Shown one piece after another: positions 1,221-12,279 of a stretch of DNA of 64,000 nt (the first letter of the stretch is position 1; each line of letters starts with the position of its first letter). Source of the DNA: Chitinophaga pinensis (GTDB lineage Bacteria > Bacteroidota > Bacteroidia > Flavobacteriales_D > Crocinitomicaceae); contig CAMDNE010000005.1 in NCBI GenBank assembly GCA_945902745.1, positions 1-64,000 on the forward strand, given 5' to 3'. The notes beneath the pieces were generated by a model that was not told where the DNA came from, ran no database searches, and worked only from the letters and a program-made list of their open reading frames with translations. The position numbers and the translations under genes were made by a program.

Positions 1221-2546
1221 TCATTTAACTGAAAATGCTTTTTTCAATAAATGAATTATAAACACAAAAAAACAAAGCATCAGAATACTGCCAGAAATGC
1301 CTAAAACAATGAACCAAGTTCTTAAGCTTTCCATCATTTCACCGAAGGAACATTGATCAGGATCTAGTTGCCAAATGCCTTTTAATATTCCGGAAACATC
1401 AAGAGAAACGAATAATACTAATAAGCTTAGTTGAACAATCCAAAAGGAATAATTCAATAATTTATTGGGTTGAACAGTTTGTTCATCCTTTGGAATAAGA
1501 AACATAAATGCTGCAGCAAAAAGTATCATACTATTGATCCCAATTGTTGTTCCCATGGCATGGGCAACGGTCACATGAGTTCCATGCGTATAAATATTAA
1601 TTACAGGTATTGACATTAAAAGTGCTTGACCCATATTAATGAATACCCAAAAATCTGTTGCCATCAAAAACCGATATGGAAAATAACTATAGTTCGATTT
1701 CATCTCTACAAGACTCTTCTTCCAATCATAAATAATTTTTACGAAGAAAAACCATTCGGTCATACTGATAAAATATGCGACATAGCGAATATAACTTTCT
1801 GTTGGTAAGGTATATATGTGATGCCCCCAATTGAACATCAAATTAGTTAAACCAAGAAAATACATTCCAAAGGCCAATTTGCTATATCCAATTTTACTTT
1901 CATTTTTATTTATTCGATCCATCAAATAAAATGCTGTACCATAAAGCATTTGGTTTAACGCTCCAACGATAGAACCATTTACTTTCCATTGAATAGTCAT
2001 ATCCGTAACAAAATGCTCTCTGAAATAGGGGAAAATCCACAAGTAATTTTCAATAAATATGAACAAAAAGAAAATAATCCCTGTCAACCACATCCAGACA
2101 TAAACTGGCCATTTTCCTGTTTTTCTAACTGCTAAAACGAAGTTTACTAAAAACAGTATCCATGACACTAGTATCGGTAAAGCCCAAATAGGATTAAATT
2201 CCCAATATTCTCTGCCTCCAAAATCTTCAGTGAAATAAGAATAGAAAACGCCAACTAGCGCAATAATCCACAATATCAATTGAATTTTTGATATAAGGAT
2301 TGAAATAGGTTTTTTTGAAAGCATCCATAATCCTGAGTAGACAGAACCGGTTGCTCCTAATATAATCCAAAACATTACCGAAGAAACGTGTAAAGGTCTC
2401 AATTTGCTTAAACCAAGGCTTTCCTTTAAAAAATCAGGCAAAACATATGTTAAACTAGATAACACACCTGCCAACAATCCACAAAACAATAAAATCAGGG
2501 CTGTTATTAAAAACTGCTTTCCTGGATTTTTTCTATTTTCTTTCAT
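1221..2546 (-). CDS. NorB-like haem-copper oxidoreductase subunit with atypical metal-site residues
   Basis: A 441-residue, roughly 12-helix membrane protein of the haem-copper superfamily, closest in length and layout to the catalytic subunit of cytochrome c-dependent NO reductase. It follows and overlaps a NorC-like gene by 14 nt. Seen: His53 in helix II (RPLH, low-spin haem ligand position), His242-His243 (GHH, FeB pair), Glu264, and His329 (VAHA, active-site haem ligand). Compared from memory with Pseudomonas NorB, three usually invariant positions differ. The helix VI FeB histidine and nearby glutamate appear as Gln186 and Asn190 (IQWKVNG). The second low-spin haem histidine, two residues after His329, is Met331. 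I checked these codons in the nucleotide sequence. It may be a divergent NO reductase, an NO dismutase-like enzyme, or something new. Automated annotation may call it cbb3 oxidase subunit I. Confidence 0.75.
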   Translation of the reverse strand: MKENRKNPGKQFLITALILLFCGLLAGVLSSLTYVLPDFLKESLGLSKLRPLHVSSVMFWIILGATGSVYSGLWMLSKKPISILISKIQLILWIIALVGVFYSYFTEDFGGREYWEFNPIWALPILVSWILFLVNFVLAVRKTGKWPVYVWMWLTGIIFFLFIFIENYLWIFPYFREHFVTDMTIQWKVNGSIVGALNQMLYGTAFYLMDRINKNESKIGYSKLAFGMYFLGLTNLMFNWGHHIYTLPTESYIRYVAYFISMTEWFFFVKIIYDWKKSLVEMKSNYSYFPYRFLMATDFWVFINMGQALLMSIPVINIYTHGTHVTVAHAMGTTIGINSMILFAAAFMFLIPKDEQTVQPNKLLNYSFWIVQLSLLVLFVSLDVSGILKGIWQLDPDQCSFGEMMESLRTWFIVLGISGSILMLCFFVFIIHLLKKAFSVK

Positions 2547-2955
2547 TTTGTTCTATCATTCCATTTTTGTGGATACTATAATTTCGTGGATTCGCATTGC
2601 CACTTGCATCTGTTTGTTTCAAAAATTCAATTAAAAAATTTTCTTCTGTTTTTGATAAATTAAAAGCGGGCATTTGCTTCATTCCCCCTTTAAATAAGGC
2701 TTTTAATATATCTTCATTTCCTTGGAATTTTGAATATTCGTTGGTCAAATCTGGACCGAGATATCCACCAAGACCATATAATTGATGGCAACATTGACAG
2801 TTATATTTTTGCCAAACGAGGCGACCTTCTACAGCAGAAACTTTATTGAATTCTTGTGCTTTCAATTTTTTTAATGGATACACATAGATGCTCAAAGAAA
2901 ACATAAGAAAGGCTAAACATAAAAGGCTAAAAATATGACGTACTTTAATTTTCAT
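2533..2955 (-). CDS. NorC-like membrane-anchored cytochrome c
   Basis: A 140-residue protein with one N-terminal membrane anchor (about residues 7-27) and a single haem c site, Cys53-Gln-Cys-Cys56-His57, followed by HQLYGLGGYLGPDLT. This resembles the NorC pattern of CxxCH, then a Gly-rich turn and PDLT. The MKQMPAF segment probably supplies the distal Met ligand. NorC carries electrons from soluble cytochromes to NorB. The gene overlaps the upstream acyl-CoA synthetase by 4 nt (ATGA) and the downstream norB-like gene by 14 nt, so translational coupling is likely. The extra Cys55 inside the haem motif is unusual but does not break CxxCH. A generic small oxidase cytochrome is possible, but the neighbour favours NorC. 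Confidence 0.8.
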   Translation of the reverse strand: MKIKVRHIFSLLCLAFLMFSLSIYVYPLKKLKAQEFNKVSAVEGRLVWQKYNCQCCHQLYGLGGYLGPDLTNEYSKFQGNEDILKALFKGGMKQMPAFNLSKTEENFLIEFLKQTDASGNANPRNYSIHKNGMIEQNERK

Positions 2956-5012: not shown

Positions 5013-6401
5013 TTATTTTATTTTCTCAAAACGTGCTTGGAAGAATCTCAAATATTTCGGTTCATAGATCATTTTCATTCCTTTAATTTTTTTACGTCTA
5101 TCATATACCATAGCTGTTGATTCAGCAACTACATCCATGTGTGCTTGCGTATAGACACGTCTTGGAATTGTAAATCTTACTAATTCTAATTTTGGGTAAT
5201 AATTTTCACCTTTGGAATTTCTGCCTGCCGAAACAATTCCTCGTTCCATTGTTCTAACCCCTGAATCTGCATATATTTCAGCCGCCAAAGTTTGAGCTGG
5301 AAAATCATCTTGAGACAAGTGAGGTAAAAAGGCTTTCGCATCAACAAAAATTCCATGTCCTCCTATAGGTTTTACGATTGGTATTCCATATTCCTGCATC
5401 CTTTTTCCAAGATATTCAACTTGACCAATTCGCGCTTTTTGGTGGTAATCATCCAAACTTTCTTTGATTCCGACGGCAATTGCTTCCATATCTCTTCCGG
5501 CAAGTCCACCATAAGTATGCAACCCTTCATAAACTACTACTAAATTTCTAGCTTCTTCATATACATCCCATTCATTGGTTGCAAGAAAACCGCCAATGTT
5601 TACAAGCGCATCTTTCTTAGCACTCATCGTTGCACCATCAGTTAGTGAACAAATTTCGTGTACTATTTCTTTTATTGTTTTTAATAAATATCCTTTTTCT
5701 CGTTGTTGAATAAAATATGCATTTTCAGCAACTCTGGTCATATCATGGATAATTCTAATACCATGTTGAAGGGTATATTTTCTAAGTTCTTTCAAATTTT
5801 CCATGCTGATCGGTTGCCCACCAGCCATATTAACATTTGTTGCAATGCTCACATAAGGAATTTTATCAGCTCCGTATTTATTTACGATCTTCTCCAATTT
5901 ATTAAGATCAACATTTCCTTTAAAAGGAAATTCATTTAAAGCGTCATGTGCTTCATCAATAATAATATCTTCAAATTTTCCACCAGCAAGCTCTTGATGC
6001 AGTCGCGTAGTTGTGAAATACATATTGCCAGGAATGACATCTCCCTTTTTTATTAAAATTTGAGAAAGAATGTTTTCAGCTCCTCGACCTTGATGGGTTG
6101 GAATTACATATTTATAGCCATAATATGTTTGTATAGCGCGCTCCATGTTGTAATAACTTTTACTTCCAGCGTAAGATTCATCACCAGTCATAAAAGCGGC
6201 CCATTGTCGATCACTCATGGCATTTGTTCCACTATCCGTTAATAGATCAATGTATACATCTTCTGATCTTAATAAAAAAGTATTGTATCCAGCCTCTTTT
6301 AAGGCTTTGTTTCGTTGCGCTTTTGTTGTCATTTTTAACAGCTCAACCATTTTCATTTTATATGGTTCAGCCCACGCTCTTTTTTCAATTTTAAGTGTCA
6401 T
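5013..6401 (-). CDS. tpl: Tyrosine phenol-lyase
   Basis: A 462-residue PLP enzyme of the beta-eliminating lyase family, converting L-tyrosine to phenol, pyruvate and ammonia. Seen: THQGRGAEN (phosphate-binding region), Asp220 in IIHDMTR (pyridine nitrogen partner), Lys263 in TMSAKKD (PLP Schiff-base lysine), and MERGIVSAGRN with Arg387. That arginine corresponds to Arg381 of the Citrobacter enzyme, which marks tyrosine over tryptophan specificity; the neighbouring paralogue has Ile there. NMYFTTTRLHQE also matches the tyrosine enzyme. It lies 2 nt after tnaA and is immediately followed by the acyl-CoA synthetase, all in one operon. Family certain; substrate choice strong but based on a few residues. 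Confidence 0.9.
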   Translation of the reverse strand: MTLKIEKRAWAEPYKMKMVELLKMTTKAQRNKALKEAGYNTFLLRSEDVYIDLLTDSGTNAMSDRQWAAFMTGDESYAGSKSYYNMERAIQTYYGYKYVIPTHQGRGAENILSQILIKKGDVIPGNMYFTTTRLHQELAGGKFEDIIIDEAHDALNEFPFKGNVDLNKLEKIVNKYGADKIPYVSIATNVNMAGGQPISMENLKELRKYTLQHGIRIIHDMTRVAENAYFIQQREKGYLLKTIKEIVHEICSLTDGATMSAKKDALVNIGGFLATNEWDVYEEARNLVVVYEGLHTYGGLAGRDMEAIAVGIKESLDDYHQKARIGQVEYLGKRMQEYGIPIVKPIGGHGIFVDAKAFLPHLSQDDFPAQTLAAEIYADSGVRTMERGIVSAGRNSKGENYYPKLELVRFTIPRRVYTQAHMDVVAESTAMVYDRRKKIKGMKMIYEPKYLRFFQARFEKIK

Positions 6402-6403
6402 AA

Positions 6404-7795
6404 TTATAAATTTATAGGTTCAAAATGTGCAGTAAAATGTCTTAAAAATGGCGGTTCATATGTGATTTTATACCCTTCGGCTTTCTCTGTTAACTCCAAA
6501 ATATCATCAAAAACATCAAGTACAAAATCAATATGACTTTGTGTATATACTCTTCTAGGAATTGCTAAACGAACTAATTCATTTGCTGCAGGAATCAATT
6601 CACCATTTTCGTCATATTTCCCAAACATTACACTTCCAATTTCAACACAACGAATACCTCCTTTTAAGTACAAATCACACACTAAAGCATGCCCAGGATA
6701 TTGATTTACAGGAATATTAGCATATAATTTTTTAGCATCGATGTAGACTGCATGTCCACCAATCGGCCAAACAACAGGGATTCCTTTTGCTCTTAAATGT
6801 TCGCCGAGATAAGCTGTGCTCCTTATTCTGTAATGTAAATAATCTTTATCAAACACTTCCTTTAACCCAATAGCTAATGCTTCCATATCTCTTCCGGAAA
6901 GACCTCCATATGTCGTAAAACCTTCTGAAATGATGAGCATGTTTTTGCATTTAACAGAAAGTGCTTCATCCTTAACCGTAAGAAGACCACCCATATTTAC
7001 AAGTCCATCTTTTTTAGCACTCATGATAAAGGCATCACCAAGATTTAACATTTCTTTTGCTATCTCCTCATATGTCAAATGACTATATTCTTTTTCTCGG
7101 TGATGAACGAAATAACTATTTTCAGCAATTCTACATCCATCAATAACCATTAAGACACCGTGATTATCACAAATTTTTCTAACAGCTTTCATGTTGGCCA
7201 TACTAACTGGTTGACCACCTGAAGAATTATTCGTAACAGTCATAATTACAGCGGCAATAGACACAGAACCATATTGTTGAATCAATTCCTCCAATTTTAA
7301 CAGGTCAATGTTTCCTTTAAAAGGCAAATCTATTTGGTTGTCTTTTGCTTCTTCACAAACAATATCAATAGCCATTGCTCCGGTATATTCAATGTTTGCG
7401 CGCGTAGTATCAAAGTGCGTATTGCTGATAAATACTTTATCCTTGCCACCTAGTATACTGTACAAAATTCTTTCTGCTGCTCTACCTTGATGTGTTGGCA
7501 AGATATAAGGCATTCCAGTTAATTCCTTCACGACACTTTCTAAATGCTCCCAACTTCTCGCTCCAGCATAACTTTCATCACCCATCATAATTCCGCTCCA
7601 CTGTTTATCACTCATAGCGCCTGTTCCACTATCTGTCAAAAGATCAATAAACACATCTTTTGATTTCAGAAGAAACGTATTATAACCAGCTTCTTTAAGG
7701 GTTTTCTCTCGATAATTTTCAGTTGTAACTTTTAAAGGCTCAACCATTTTAATTTTAAATGGCTCTGTCAATGTGCGCAATCTATTTTTATCCAT
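6404..7795 (-). CDS. tnaA: Tryptophanase
   Basis: A 463-residue PLP-dependent tryptophan indole-lyase giving indole, pyruvate and ammonia. It is a paralogue of the adjacent tyrosine phenol-lyase. The PLP lysine lies in IMSAKKDGLVN, the pyridine-N aspartate in MVIDGCRIAEN, and the specificity region reads CVEIGSVMFGK. The Ile takes the place of the Arg that defines tyrosine phenol-lyase, as in Escherichia coli TnaA. The C-terminal FLRHFTAHF matches the conserved tryptophanase tail. It is the first gene of the operon. There is no obvious TnaC-type leader peptide in the 227-base upstream region, which instead holds two palindromic sites and a -7 element. Indole could also act as a signal; that is inference. 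Confidence 0.92.
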   Translation of the reverse strand: MDKNRLRTLTEPFKIKMVEPLKVTTENYREKTLKEAGYNTFLLKSKDVFIDLLTDSGTGAMSDKQWSGIMMGDESYAGARSWEHLESVVKELTGMPYILPTHQGRAAERILYSILGGKDKVFISNTHFDTTRANIEYTGAMAIDIVCEEAKDNQIDLPFKGNIDLLKLEELIQQYGSVSIAAVIMTVTNNSSGGQPVSMANMKAVRKICDNHGVLMVIDGCRIAENSYFVHHREKEYSHLTYEEIAKEMLNLGDAFIMSAKKDGLVNMGGLLTVKDEALSVKCKNMLIISEGFTTYGGLSGRDMEALAIGLKEVFDKDYLHYRIRSTAYLGEHLRAKGIPVVWPIGGHAVYIDAKKLYANIPVNQYPGHALVCDLYLKGGIRCVEIGSVMFGKYDENGELIPAANELVRLAIPRRVYTQSHIDFVLDVFDDILELTEKAEGYKITYEPPFLRHFTAHFEPINL

Positions 7796-9514: not shown

Positions 9515-10468
9515 TTAGGCTGATAGATTCAACATTTTTTCGATTGGAATCATTGCTTTAGATAGTATTTCTGGCGAAATATTAACTTCTGGTGATTCTG
9601 TTTCTAAACAGTTCAATATTTTTACTAACGTATTGAGTCGCATAAAACCGCATTCGCTGCATGAGCAAGAATTCGCTTCAACTGTTGGTGCTGGAATAAA
9701 GGTTTTATTTGGCACTTCAATTTTCATACGGTGCAATATTCCAGCTTCAGTGGCTACAATGAATGTTTGTTTTGTGCTATTCTTTACATATTCAATCATT
9801 CCAGAAGTAGAGCCAATAAAATTCGCTAAGGATAGAATATGCTCTTCAGATTCAGGATGTGCAACAATGACTGCTTGAGGGTGTTTTAGTTTTAATTCTA
9901 CTATTTTATCAAATGAAAACGCCTCATGAACAATACAAGCACCATCCCAAAGCACAAATTTTCGCCCAGTTATTTTTTGTAAATACTTTCCTAAATTTTT
10001 GTCAGGAGCAAATATAATTGGCTTATCAAGTGGGATGGATTCGATAACTTTCACAGCATTTGAAGACGTACAAACGATATCACTCATCGCCTTTATTTCA
10101 GCTGAACAATTTATATATGTTACTACTGTATGATCAGGAAAATCTTTTATAAAATTTCTAAATTTAATTGGCGGACAAGATTCTGCCAATGAGCAACTTG
10201 CATTCGAATCTGGAATAACAACTTTTTTTGATGGATTAATTATTTTAGCCGTTTCAGCCATAAAATGTACTCCAGCAAAGACTATTAAATCCGCTTTAGT
10301 TCTAGACGCTTCAACAGACAAGCCATAACTATCTCCCACAAAATCTGCAATATTTTGAATTGCTTCTTCTTGATAATAATGTGCTAAAATAACGGCATTT
10401 TTTTCCGCTTTTAAGTCATTGATTCTCTTTGTTATTTCCTTTATAGTCATAACATTTTCATTTTTCAA
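9515..10468 (-). CDS. nadA: Quinolinate synthase
   Basis: A 317-residue NadA that condenses iminoaspartate with dihydroxyacetone phosphate to quinolinate using an oxygen-sensitive [4Fe-4S] cluster. It has the three-fold NadA layout: ILAHYYQEEAIQ near the N-terminus, VVTYINCSAEIKA in the middle, and SCSCSECGFMRLNT near residue 273. Cysteines in CSLAESCPP, INCSAE and the C-terminal group can supply the three cluster ligands. The start overlaps the upstream 604-residue gene by 4 nt (ATGA), supporting this start and translational coupling. Length is normal for the family. Confidence 0.95.
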   Translation of the reverse strand: MKNENVMTIKEITKRINDLKAEKNAVILAHYYQEEAIQNIADFVGDSYGLSVEASRTKADLIVFAGVHFMAETAKIINPSKKVVIPDSNASCSLAESCPPIKFRNFIKDFPDHTVVTYINCSAEIKAMSDIVCTSSNAVKVIESIPLDKPIIFAPDKNLGKYLQKITGRKFVLWDGACIVHEAFSFDKIVELKLKHPQAVIVAHPESEEHILSLANFIGSTSGMIEYVKNSTKQTFIVATEAGILHRMKIEVPNKTFIPAPTVEANSCSCSECGFMRLNTLVKILNCLETESPEVNISPEILSKAMIPIEKMLNLSA

Positions 10469-12279
10469 ACAACGCTAAATCCTCTAACTTGGATCGCTTG
10501 AAGATTGTTTTTTAATTCTTCTATCTGTTCAAGTGTGTTTTCCAAAGCTTTTTTCGAAGACATTTTCAACGAAGACAGTAATCCAGTATAATAATTTAAT
10601 CCTTTTTCTAAATTTTCTTTAAATACTTGATAATACTGTTGCTGTTTTTCTGACATAACATCTAGTTGAGCATCAAGTTCTTTTTTCAGATAGTCTATAT
10701 ACAACTGAGCCTCGTTGATGAAAATATGTGGACGAGAAATCTTATTTAGCACATTTAATCGACCGTAAATATGATCGACCATTTCGCTCAATTTATAGGT
10801 GCCTTTGAAATAATATGTGTTTGGCCCTGGACAAATACTTACAGCATCTAATTTATGTGACAATTCACCATCATTTGTTAAAATCGCTGAAGCGCCTAAT
10901 CCTTCACATAAACATTCCTTTTCCATAATTTTTTCGACTTCATATGCTTTTCTTAAATCAGAAAGTTCACTGTTTTTCACTTGTTCCATTTTCAACTTTT
11001 GAAATTGTCTAGAAGCTGTGCAGATAGGTTTTTCTGTAAATTCCGTATTAAACGACAAGAATTTCTTGTAGCATGGACTTCCAGCTTTGTGTTTTTCAAT
11101 TCTTTCCATTCGTTGTTCTTCAGAACTTGATCCACGGAAATTATTAAACGGCACTCCAAGAGGTGAAGAATTACTGATATAAAAATCTTTTTTCTTTGCT
11201 GTAATTAAAGCTTTTAACGTTTCTTCATCTACATTTGTTGATTCAGGCACAAGTAAAAACGGACTACCCCAACCCGTACCATCAAGGTTGTAATAATTCA
11301 TCAAAAACTTGTCTTCATCTGAAGTTCCAATTCCTCCTTGAGCAGTAATTTTCAAACTTGGGTTCAATGGCAATATATTTCTATTGGATTCACTCAAAGT
11401 CTTTACACAGATTTCGTATAACTCGTCATAAAGCTCTTGTCTTTTTTCTTTAAATTCTTCTAAAATTGGACCTAATAAAAATCCATGAGTTGCAAAAGCA
11501 TGTCCTCCACAATTTAAACCTGATTCGATTCTAAATTCTGAAACCCATATTCCTTTTTTAGCAAACATTTTACCTTGGATCACTGCAGAGCGATAATCAC
11601 TTACTTTTAGCACTACTTTCTTTTTGATTTCACCATTCGAATCAGGATAGAAATCATCAAAATTTTCACAATAGGTAAATAGTTTTGGATTCATCCCTGC
11701 AGAAAATATGATTGAAGAAGAAAGATTACTTTCAGCATATCCTTTTAAAACACTTTTAGCATCAGAATATTCAGCGGGGAGTAATTCACCATCACCTGAA
11801 TAATTTTGATTATCGAGTTTTGTCATGATATTTACATCGATTGAACCAGCTTTTATAAAAGATTTCAATTTGCTTTCTAACACTTTTTTCACTGTTAAAT
11901 CCTCTGTATTTAACATTTTAAGATAAAGCGATTTTTCAAATGCACTTTCAGGTAACATTGTAAAATACTTAGTTATATCTGAATTAGGAGAGAAATCTTC
12001 ATTTTTCAACGTTGAAATTTGTTCATTCACTACGTCATTCATAAAATTTAAATACGCTTTAATTCGTTTGGAACGACGGTCAATATCTTTAGACGAGATT
12101 GGTTCATATTTATAATTTAATCTTTTAGAATGAACTTTCCTCATTTCTTCTATCAAGTGATCTTCCATTATAGAAACAACAGATGAAATTCCAAATTTTG
12201 CAACTTTCAGTGGAGTATCTATCGTGTATCCAAGCCCCATTACTGGGATATGAAATGTGTGTGGTGTATTATTTGACAT
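10465..12279 (-). CDS. Uncharacterised nitronate-monooxygenase-like TIM-barrel protein
   Basis: A 604-residue soluble protein with no name I recognise. Several segments match the nitronate monooxygenase (2-nitropropane dioxygenase) FMN barrel in order: GLGYTIDTPLKVAKFG (15-30) at the first strand, GLNCGGH (254-260, family GxEAGGH), AQGGIGT (313-319, phosphate loop), and WGSPFLLVPES (337-347, family GTRFLxxPES). After the barrel comes a Cys-rich stretch (Cys403, 420, 456, 458, 483) that could bind an Fe-S cluster, then a helical, coiled-coil-like tail (about 525-600). It leads an operon with nadA (4-nt overlap) and nadB, under the shared palindrome. A PfaD-like enoyl reductase is an alternative within the same fold. 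The fold call is moderate; the function is unknown. Confidence 0.65.
   Translation of the reverse strand: MSNNTPHTFHIPVMGLGYTIDTPLKVAKFGISSVVSIMEDHLIEEMRKVHSKRLNYKYEPISSKDIDRRSKRIKAYLNFMNDVVNEQISTLKNEDFSPNSDITKYFTMLPESAFEKSLYLKMLNTEDLTVKKVLESKLKSFIKAGSIDVNIMTKLDNQNYSGDGELLPAEYSDAKSVLKGYAESNLSSSIIFSAGMNPKLFTYCENFDDFYPDSNGEIKKKVVLKVSDYRSAVIQGKMFAKKGIWVSEFRIESGLNCGGHAFATHGFLLGPILEEFKEKRQELYDELYEICVKTLSESNRNILPLNPSLKITAQGGIGTSDEDKFLMNYYNLDGTGWGSPFLLVPESTNVDEETLKALITAKKKDFYISNSSPLGVPFNNFRGSSSEEQRMERIEKHKAGSPCYKKFLSFNTEFTEKPICTASRQFQKLKMEQVKNSELSDLRKAYEVEKIMEKECLCEGLGASAILTNDGELSHKLDAVSICPGPNTYYFKGTYKLSEMVDHIYGRLNVLNKISRPHIFINEAQLYIDYLKKELDAQLDVMSEKQQQYYQVFKENLEKGLNYYTGLLSSLKMSSKKALENTLEQIEELKNNLQAIQVRGFSVV

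Follow-up and report, generated by a model that had tools for sequence, protein, structure and literature searches.

The question raised by this locus is what reaction, if any, is catalysed by a NorB-like protein in which canonical haem- and metal-binding residues have been replaced. In the window, by which is meant the whole 64,000-nucleotide stretch of DNA that was analysed, this protein (hereafter X, as is its family) and its partner are encoded as follows.

1221..2546, minus strand: X, NorB-like haem-copper-superfamily subunit of 441 amino acids (open reading frame, Pfam COX1, AF2, Foldseek and family comparison)
2533..2955, minus strand: NorC-like cytochrome c of 140 amino acids, with CxxCH (C53, C56, H57) and Met95

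The gene pair and its predicted fold

The open reading frame of X (1221-2546, minus strand) is intact and has 14 nucleotides in common with that of the cytochrome c (2533-2955), bearing out the view of an earlier note, made from the letters of the sequence, that the gene is whole and coupled to a cytochrome c gene. COX1 (PF00115; 119.4 bits, E 2.3e-34, cut-off 34.8) is the sole Pfam domain of X, which also matches TIGR00780 (CcoN; E 1.9e-14) under the curated cut-off. Among solved structures, sequence comparison relates X to NorB subunits of cNOR, to CcoN and to a single qNOR. A structural model, as the earlier note had proposed, was built by AF2 from a 79-row alignment (pLDDT 88.4, pTM 0.91), and in Foldseek its best matches were CcoN and cNOR chains (TM (query) 0.84-0.86). 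X is thus a member of the haem-copper oxidase superfamily by fold and by its COX1 sequence family, and the COX1 match and the cNOR/CcoN-like predicted fold agree with its description in that note as NorB-like.

In similarity clustering the cytochrome c falls with NorC proteins from canonical norCB operons, and its score against Pfam PF22085 is under the cut-off. C53, C56, H57 and M95 are kept in at least 97% of 77 partners, and in 76 of the 78 mapped loci the gene immediately upstream of X is NorC-like.

Metal- and haem-site residues

Residues were compared in a 101-row alignment comprising the window, 12 homologues from the bacterial family of the window and 88 loci; it contains 94 distinct sequences (86 clusters at 95% identity), and partial rows are gapped. 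The codons of the positions discussed below, with the composition of the alignment at each, are:

2388..2390, minus strand: His53, at the position of the first ligand to the low-spin haem (H in all 100 non-gap rows)
2001..2003, minus strand: Asp182, nine residues before the FeB-His position (D in 99 and E in 1 of 100 non-gap rows)
1989..1991, minus strand: Gln186, the FeB-His position of the earlier note, matching instead the Gln of CcoN QWWYGH
1974..1976, minus strand: Gly191, most likely the helix VI FeB/CuB His position (G in 100 of 100 non-gap rows)
1962..1964, minus strand: Gly195, which coincides with or adjoins the position of the catalytic Glu (G in all 100 non-gap rows)
1818..1823, minus strand: His242-His243, the metal-site pair of helix VII, which is kept (both H in all 100 non-gap rows)
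1755..1757, minus strand: Glu264, at the position of the second active-site Glu, which is Gln in NOD (E in all 101 rows)
1560..1562, minus strand: His329, where the high-spin haem has its proximal ligand (H in all 99 non-gap rows)
1554..1556, minus strand: Met331, in place of the second His of H-x-H, a low-spin haem ligand (M in all 99 non-gap rows)

The earlier note had claimed that His53, His242/243, Glu264 and His329 remain, which is the case, and that Met331 stands at the second low-spin haem position. The latter assignment is secure in an ungapped block (THGT...AH-x-M) in which X aligns with cNOR and Met331 falls on the second H of H-x-H. Four residues of the histidine sextet, given as the signature of the haem-copper oxidase superfamily in PMC3413370, are present in X, the other two positions being Gly191 in helix VI and Met331 at the second low-spin site. 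The cNOR motifs HLWVEG (helix VI) and H-x-H (helix X) are both absent from the X alignment.

In helix VI the earlier note had paired HLWVEG with QWKVNG of X, making Gln186 and Asn190 the equivalents of the FeB His and catalytic Glu. The loss of both residues stands; the proposed equivalents probably do not, the likelier ones being Gly191, and Gly195 or a gap. When the X family profile is aligned with 4xyd, 3o0r and 9g6b, Gly191 stands opposite the FeB/CuB His, and for 4xyd and 3o0r the Glu lies in a gap adjoining Gly195. When the single X protein was used in phmmer, the His and Glu paired with Gly191 and Gly195 against 3o0r and with Asn190 and Val194 against 4xyd; similarly, hhalign returned Gly191/Gly195 against an alignment of cNOR plus NOD and Asn190/Val194 against cNOR alone. 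The Gly191 register is favoured because of its spacing to an upstream Asp and to the helix VII pair. An Asp lies nine residues before this position in all 6 CcoN rows, 8 of 9 cNOR rows and 20 of 21 X rows, the remaining X row having Glu, compared with 0 of 9 qNOR/NOD rows, and the distance to the helix VII pair is 51 residues both from Gly191 in the window protein (50-52 across X) and from the helix VI His in 9 of 9 cNORs. Gln186-Trp187 of X corresponds to the Gln-Trp of CcoN QWWYGH. The Gln186/Asn190 register was rejected on the basis of the profile, of hhalign against cNOR plus NOD and of spacing; the missing FeB His position is most likely Gly191, while that of the first Glu would be Gly195 or a gap (Val194 in the Asn190 register). 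The concern that a different His and Glu might occupy these positions is not borne out, as every register obtained by profile, phmmer or hhalign leaves X without a helix VI His or Glu.

Gln186, Trp187, Lys188, Gly191, Gly195, Asn198, His53, His242 and His243 are invariant in 100 of 100 non-gap rows, while Asn190 is variable (N 84, Y 11, A 3, G 1, S 1 in 100 rows), and 57 columns are invariant across 79 X rows. Comparison with relatives, another check proposed in the earlier note, thus shows the same replacements in every non-gap row (Gly191 and Gly195 in 100 of 100, Met331 in 99 of 99), consistent with its statement that this is not a decaying gene. X is a real, conserved and divergent family. 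Its relatives are encoded by 483 of 555 pattern-matched stretches, of which the best 80 were retained for analysis; the titles of these best 80 are Bacteroidota except for L071, an unclassified MAG, and L104. The L104 contig carries a Thermoanaerobaculia label and is perhaps misbinned or transferred. The distribution of X is patchy, with homologues at ≥43% identity in 13 of 100 genomes of the window's family and X in 8 of 395 genomes of a phylum sample. A second, more divergent copy (436 bits) is present in G539, the genome of L109, at C27:10242-11540.

Known relatives and genomic context

The tree proposed in the earlier note, here of 46 rows with cNOR, qNOR, NOD and CcoN as references and without eNOR, sNOR, gNOR, nNOR or bNOR, places X outside the reference clades. 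All X rows group together in a single clade (100/100), separately from cNOR, from qNOR plus NOD and from CcoN; the separate cNOR clade has a support of 81/94, and the attachment of X is uncertain as a result of long branches. Like X, cNOR (NorBC) comprises a NorC-like cytochrome c and a NorB-like subunit encoded by two genes, and the two share the fold, the helix VII His pair, the second Glu, the proximal His and the first low-spin His. X differs from cNOR in lacking the helix VI FeB His and the first Glu, in having Met for the second low-spin His, in its separate clade, and in that NorQ was found only where a canonical cNOR co-occurs.

NOD resembles X in the loss of one FeB His and one active-site Glu, and adjoins X in some genomes. 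However, NOD is a single-chain qNOR-like protein that keeps the helix VI His and H-x-H, and it loses His560, replaced with Asn (PMC10286720), and the other Glu, positions that X keeps as His243 and Glu264. The His-Asn and Glu-Gln replacements are described as the NOD signature in PMC10286720 and PMC3413370. The assignment of X as a NOD was rejected, given the retention of His243 and Glu264, the loss of the helix VI His and the separation in the tree; the NO dismutation suggested in the earlier note therefore has no support from homology. CcoN (cbb3 oxidase subunit I) has in common with X the fold, the D-x-x-(V/I/L)-Q-W segment of helix VI and low sequence similarity, but in the CcoN rows compared the helix VI His and H-x-H are kept. 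Changed active sites are also found in eNOR, sNOR, gNOR, nNOR and bNOR, proposed or shown NO reductases that are assigned to the B family in PMC11388526; Asn is given as an active-site residue of sNOR and CuANOR (bNOR), and a cupredoxin as the second subunit of sNOR, gNOR and eNOR, in PMC8756737. Compared with these enzymes by description, X has a cytochrome c partner and is nearest to cNOR and CcoN among the sequences compared. A plasmid search with X yielded 64 records, the 30 listed at 24-26% identity being annotated as cbb3-type or NOR subunits. Family X was not recognised in a search of the open-access literature, and the NOR survey of Murali et al. 2024 (PNAS) may contain it.

Neighbouring genes were mapped in 78 of the best 80 loci (L085 and L104 were left out), and are counted as similarity clusters within seven genes of X, named from one or a few scanned members. 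Tryptophanase/tyrosine phenol-lyase genes are near X in 44 of these loci, Rrf2 regulators in 39, NadA and NadB in 37 each, proline dehydrogenase in 22, RIC/ScdA-type repair proteins in 21 and anaerobic ribonucleotide reductase in 19. The scanned Rrf2 regulators score far under the NsrR cut-off, and the NadB of the window just under its curated cut-off. In L034, which is near-identical to the window locus, an Rrf2 regulator and a RIC protein (over cut-off) are near X.

Two adjoining tryptophanase/tyrosine phenol-lyase-like genes occupy 5013-7795 (minus strand) of the window, the first over the curated tyrosine phenol-lyase cut-off and the second over the general tryptophanase cut-off. A 604-residue protein encoded at 10465-12279 (minus strand) has no Pfam, NCBIfam or PDB sequence match, and such a 604-residue protein with no Pfam match is near X in 30 of the 78 mapped loci. 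A 407-residue protein encoded at L089:14149-15369 (plus strand) contains an HTHSH motif and matches nothing in Pfam or NCBIfam; its cluster occurs close to X in 15 loci.

Canonical cNOR genes preceded by norQ-norD are found at L047 (where the fetched stretch ends within norB), L050, L054 and L060. At L058, L084, L109 and L111 a qNOR-like gene with the His-Asn and Glu-Gln replacements is beside X; these NOD-type genes, on Bacteroidota contigs, lie at L058:475-2886, L084:1090-3429, L109:1861-4200 and L111:5175-7478. In L103 (Flavobacterium orientale) genes for Rrf2, NadA, NadB, cytochrome c, X, cytochrome c, NosZ, NosL and NosD follow one another on one strand, succeeded on the same strand by an ABC ATPase and then an ABC-2 permease, probably NosF and NosY. 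The order in L105 is cytochrome c, X, a NirK with a C-terminal cytochrome c domain (338.9 bits, cut-off 296.3), an FGE-type protein and SCO1, the first three genes being contiguous; NosZ is 11.5 kb away, and C-family NOR and NorQ were undetected in the genome (G536).

N-oxide genes were then counted in 50 X genomes, G000 and those of 49 of 79 loci. These were hand-picked and take in seven of eight loci already seen beside NOR or NOD and four of five beside NosZ, so that counts may be inflated; they are mostly metagenome assemblies of uncertain completeness, which makes absences weak, and at least six also occur in the family or phylum sample (matching coordinates). NosZ is present in 43 of the 50, on one contig with X and with starts ≤20 kb apart in 24 of the 43. 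A C-family NOR or NOD was found in 20 (11 cNOR and 9 qNOR-length genes); all nine qNOR-length genes carry the NOD residues, and five of these start <8 kb from X. NirK occurs in 15 genomes (13 over cut-off), NosZ without detected cNOR, qNOR or NOD in 26, and NirK over cut-off without detected C-family NOR in four, three of them with NosZ. The 11 genomes in which NorQ was detected are precisely those that have canonical cNOR, and it was found in none of the other 39; X is therefore not loaded via the NorQ route of cNOR.

In the phylum sample NosZ is present in 7 of 8 X-positive and 121 of 387 X-negative genomes (Fisher p 0.002). The family sample gave 4 of 13 versus 3 of 87 for NosZ (p 0.005) and 3 of 13 (two cNOR, one canonical qNOR) versus 1 of 87 for NOR, while NirK over cut-off, at 2 of 13 versus 3 of 87, was not significant (p 0.12); both of these NirK-containing X genomes also have cNOR. 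As 20 of the 50 X genomes already possess cNOR or NOD, X is not simply the missing NOR, and its role as merely the sole NOR of nirK strains was rejected on this count and on the cNOR of the family-sample NirK genomes. NosZ, NirK, C-family NOR and NorQ were undetected in the window's own genome (99.85% complete), as were NirK, C-family NOR/NOD and NosZ in two near relatives that carry X (G493 and G495). The N-oxide link is well supported for family X; that of the window's genome rests on homologues and on L034.

Possible functions of X

We tentatively favour the view that X works together with its cytochrome c as a membrane enzyme of two subunits that consumes NO in Bacteroidota. It would most likely be an NO reductase whose active site has been rebuilt, and would serve in NO detoxification or in NO reduction feeding NosZ. 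The cytochrome c haem would donate electrons to a low-spin haem b ligated by His53 and Met331, from which they would move on to the high-spin haem bound by His329. The metal beside the latter would have His242, His243 and perhaps Glu264 as ligands, giving a two-His-one-carboxylate site in place of three His plus Glu. What the analysis shows is the predicted fold, the gene pair, the residues with their conservation, the separate clade and the NosZ association, whereas haem ligation, the metal, the electron path, NO as substrate and N2O as product are what we infer. An NO-consuming enzyme is consistent with the cNOR/CcoN-like model and near-constant NorC-like partner (76 of 78 mapped loci), and with the presence without exception of His53, Met331, His242/243, Glu264 and His329. 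It is also in keeping with the association with NosZ in the 50 X genomes and in the phylum and family samples, often on shared contigs, with the NosZ run of L103, the cytochrome c-X-nirK order of L105 and the four genomes with NirK and no NOR, and with the Rrf2 (39 loci) and RIC/ScdA-type (21 loci) neighbours. Against this, loss of the FeB His and the Glu would be expected to harm canonical NO reduction; NadA/NadB, the tryptophanase-like proteins and proline dehydrogenase do not point to NO, and the Rrf2 scores are far under the NsrR cut-off. Furthermore, the window's genome, G493 and G495 contain X with no detected NirK, C-family NOR/NOD or NosZ, the family-sample NirK association is not significant, and most NosZ genomes of the phylum sample (121 of 128) are without X.

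It is somewhat unlikely that X is not an enzyme at all, functioning as a haem-based NO sensor or a membrane electron conduit. Such a role would fit the lack of a His at the helix VI metal position in any row, the 39 of 50 genomes in which NorQ was undetected and the Rrf2 regulators nearby. The NorQ pattern does not, however, show X to be metal-free, and qNOR is not known to use NorQ; the retention of His242/243 and Glu264 without exception would be unexpected if no metal were bound, Pfam shows COX1 alone, and the cytochrome c partner is kept.

Other N-oxide chemistry, which the earlier note plausibly raised, is an unlikely explanation: X would oxidise NO to nitrite with the cytochrome c as acceptor, or carry out a step complementing NOD or NosZ. 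The NOD residues in nine of nine qNOR-length genes, five of these <8 kb from X, point in this direction, as does the occurrence of X alongside cNOR in 11 of 50 genomes, where it may do something else; a His/Met haem b would, in addition, be expected to have a high potential. Nevertheless, NOD was undetected in 41 of the 50 genomes, a hand-picked set that includes loci already seen beside NOD, and G071 (family sample, L123) has a canonical qNOR instead of NOD. We know of no haem-copper protein with an activity of the NO-oxidation type. A slimmer prospect is the fuller form of this proposal, a Bacteroidota haem-copper-type enzyme with a His/Met haem b and a two-His-one-Glu metal whose N-oxide reaction would be other than N2O formation (for example, oxidation of NO, or a step linked to NO dismutase and NosZ).

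It is improbable that X serves as a microaerobic oxygen reductase with its origin in the C family. The D-x-x-(V/I/L)-Q-W segment common to X and CcoN and the anaerobic ribonucleotide reductase genes in 19 loci are compatible with the idea, but the helix VI His of CcoN carries the cross-linked Tyr and is Gly in X, X is associated with NosZ, and a full CcoN/CcoO fusion is encoded elsewhere in the window's genome. That X is a paralogue in decay or without function, as the loss of canonical residues might suggest, is so improbable that we reject it, since the same replacements occur in all rows, 57 columns are invariant in 79 rows and the gene pair is kept.

X is probably an uncharacterised nitric-oxide enzyme, as judged from residues, relatives and gene neighbourhoods. 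Genomes with nir and nosZ but without nor are given in PMC12569097 as including 9% of Bacteroidota, and X is a concrete candidate for an NO step in such strains, one that could be set aside by screens requiring the canonical ligands. As a conserved member with four of the six signature histidines and a probable His/Met haem b, X tests what haem-copper chemistry needs.
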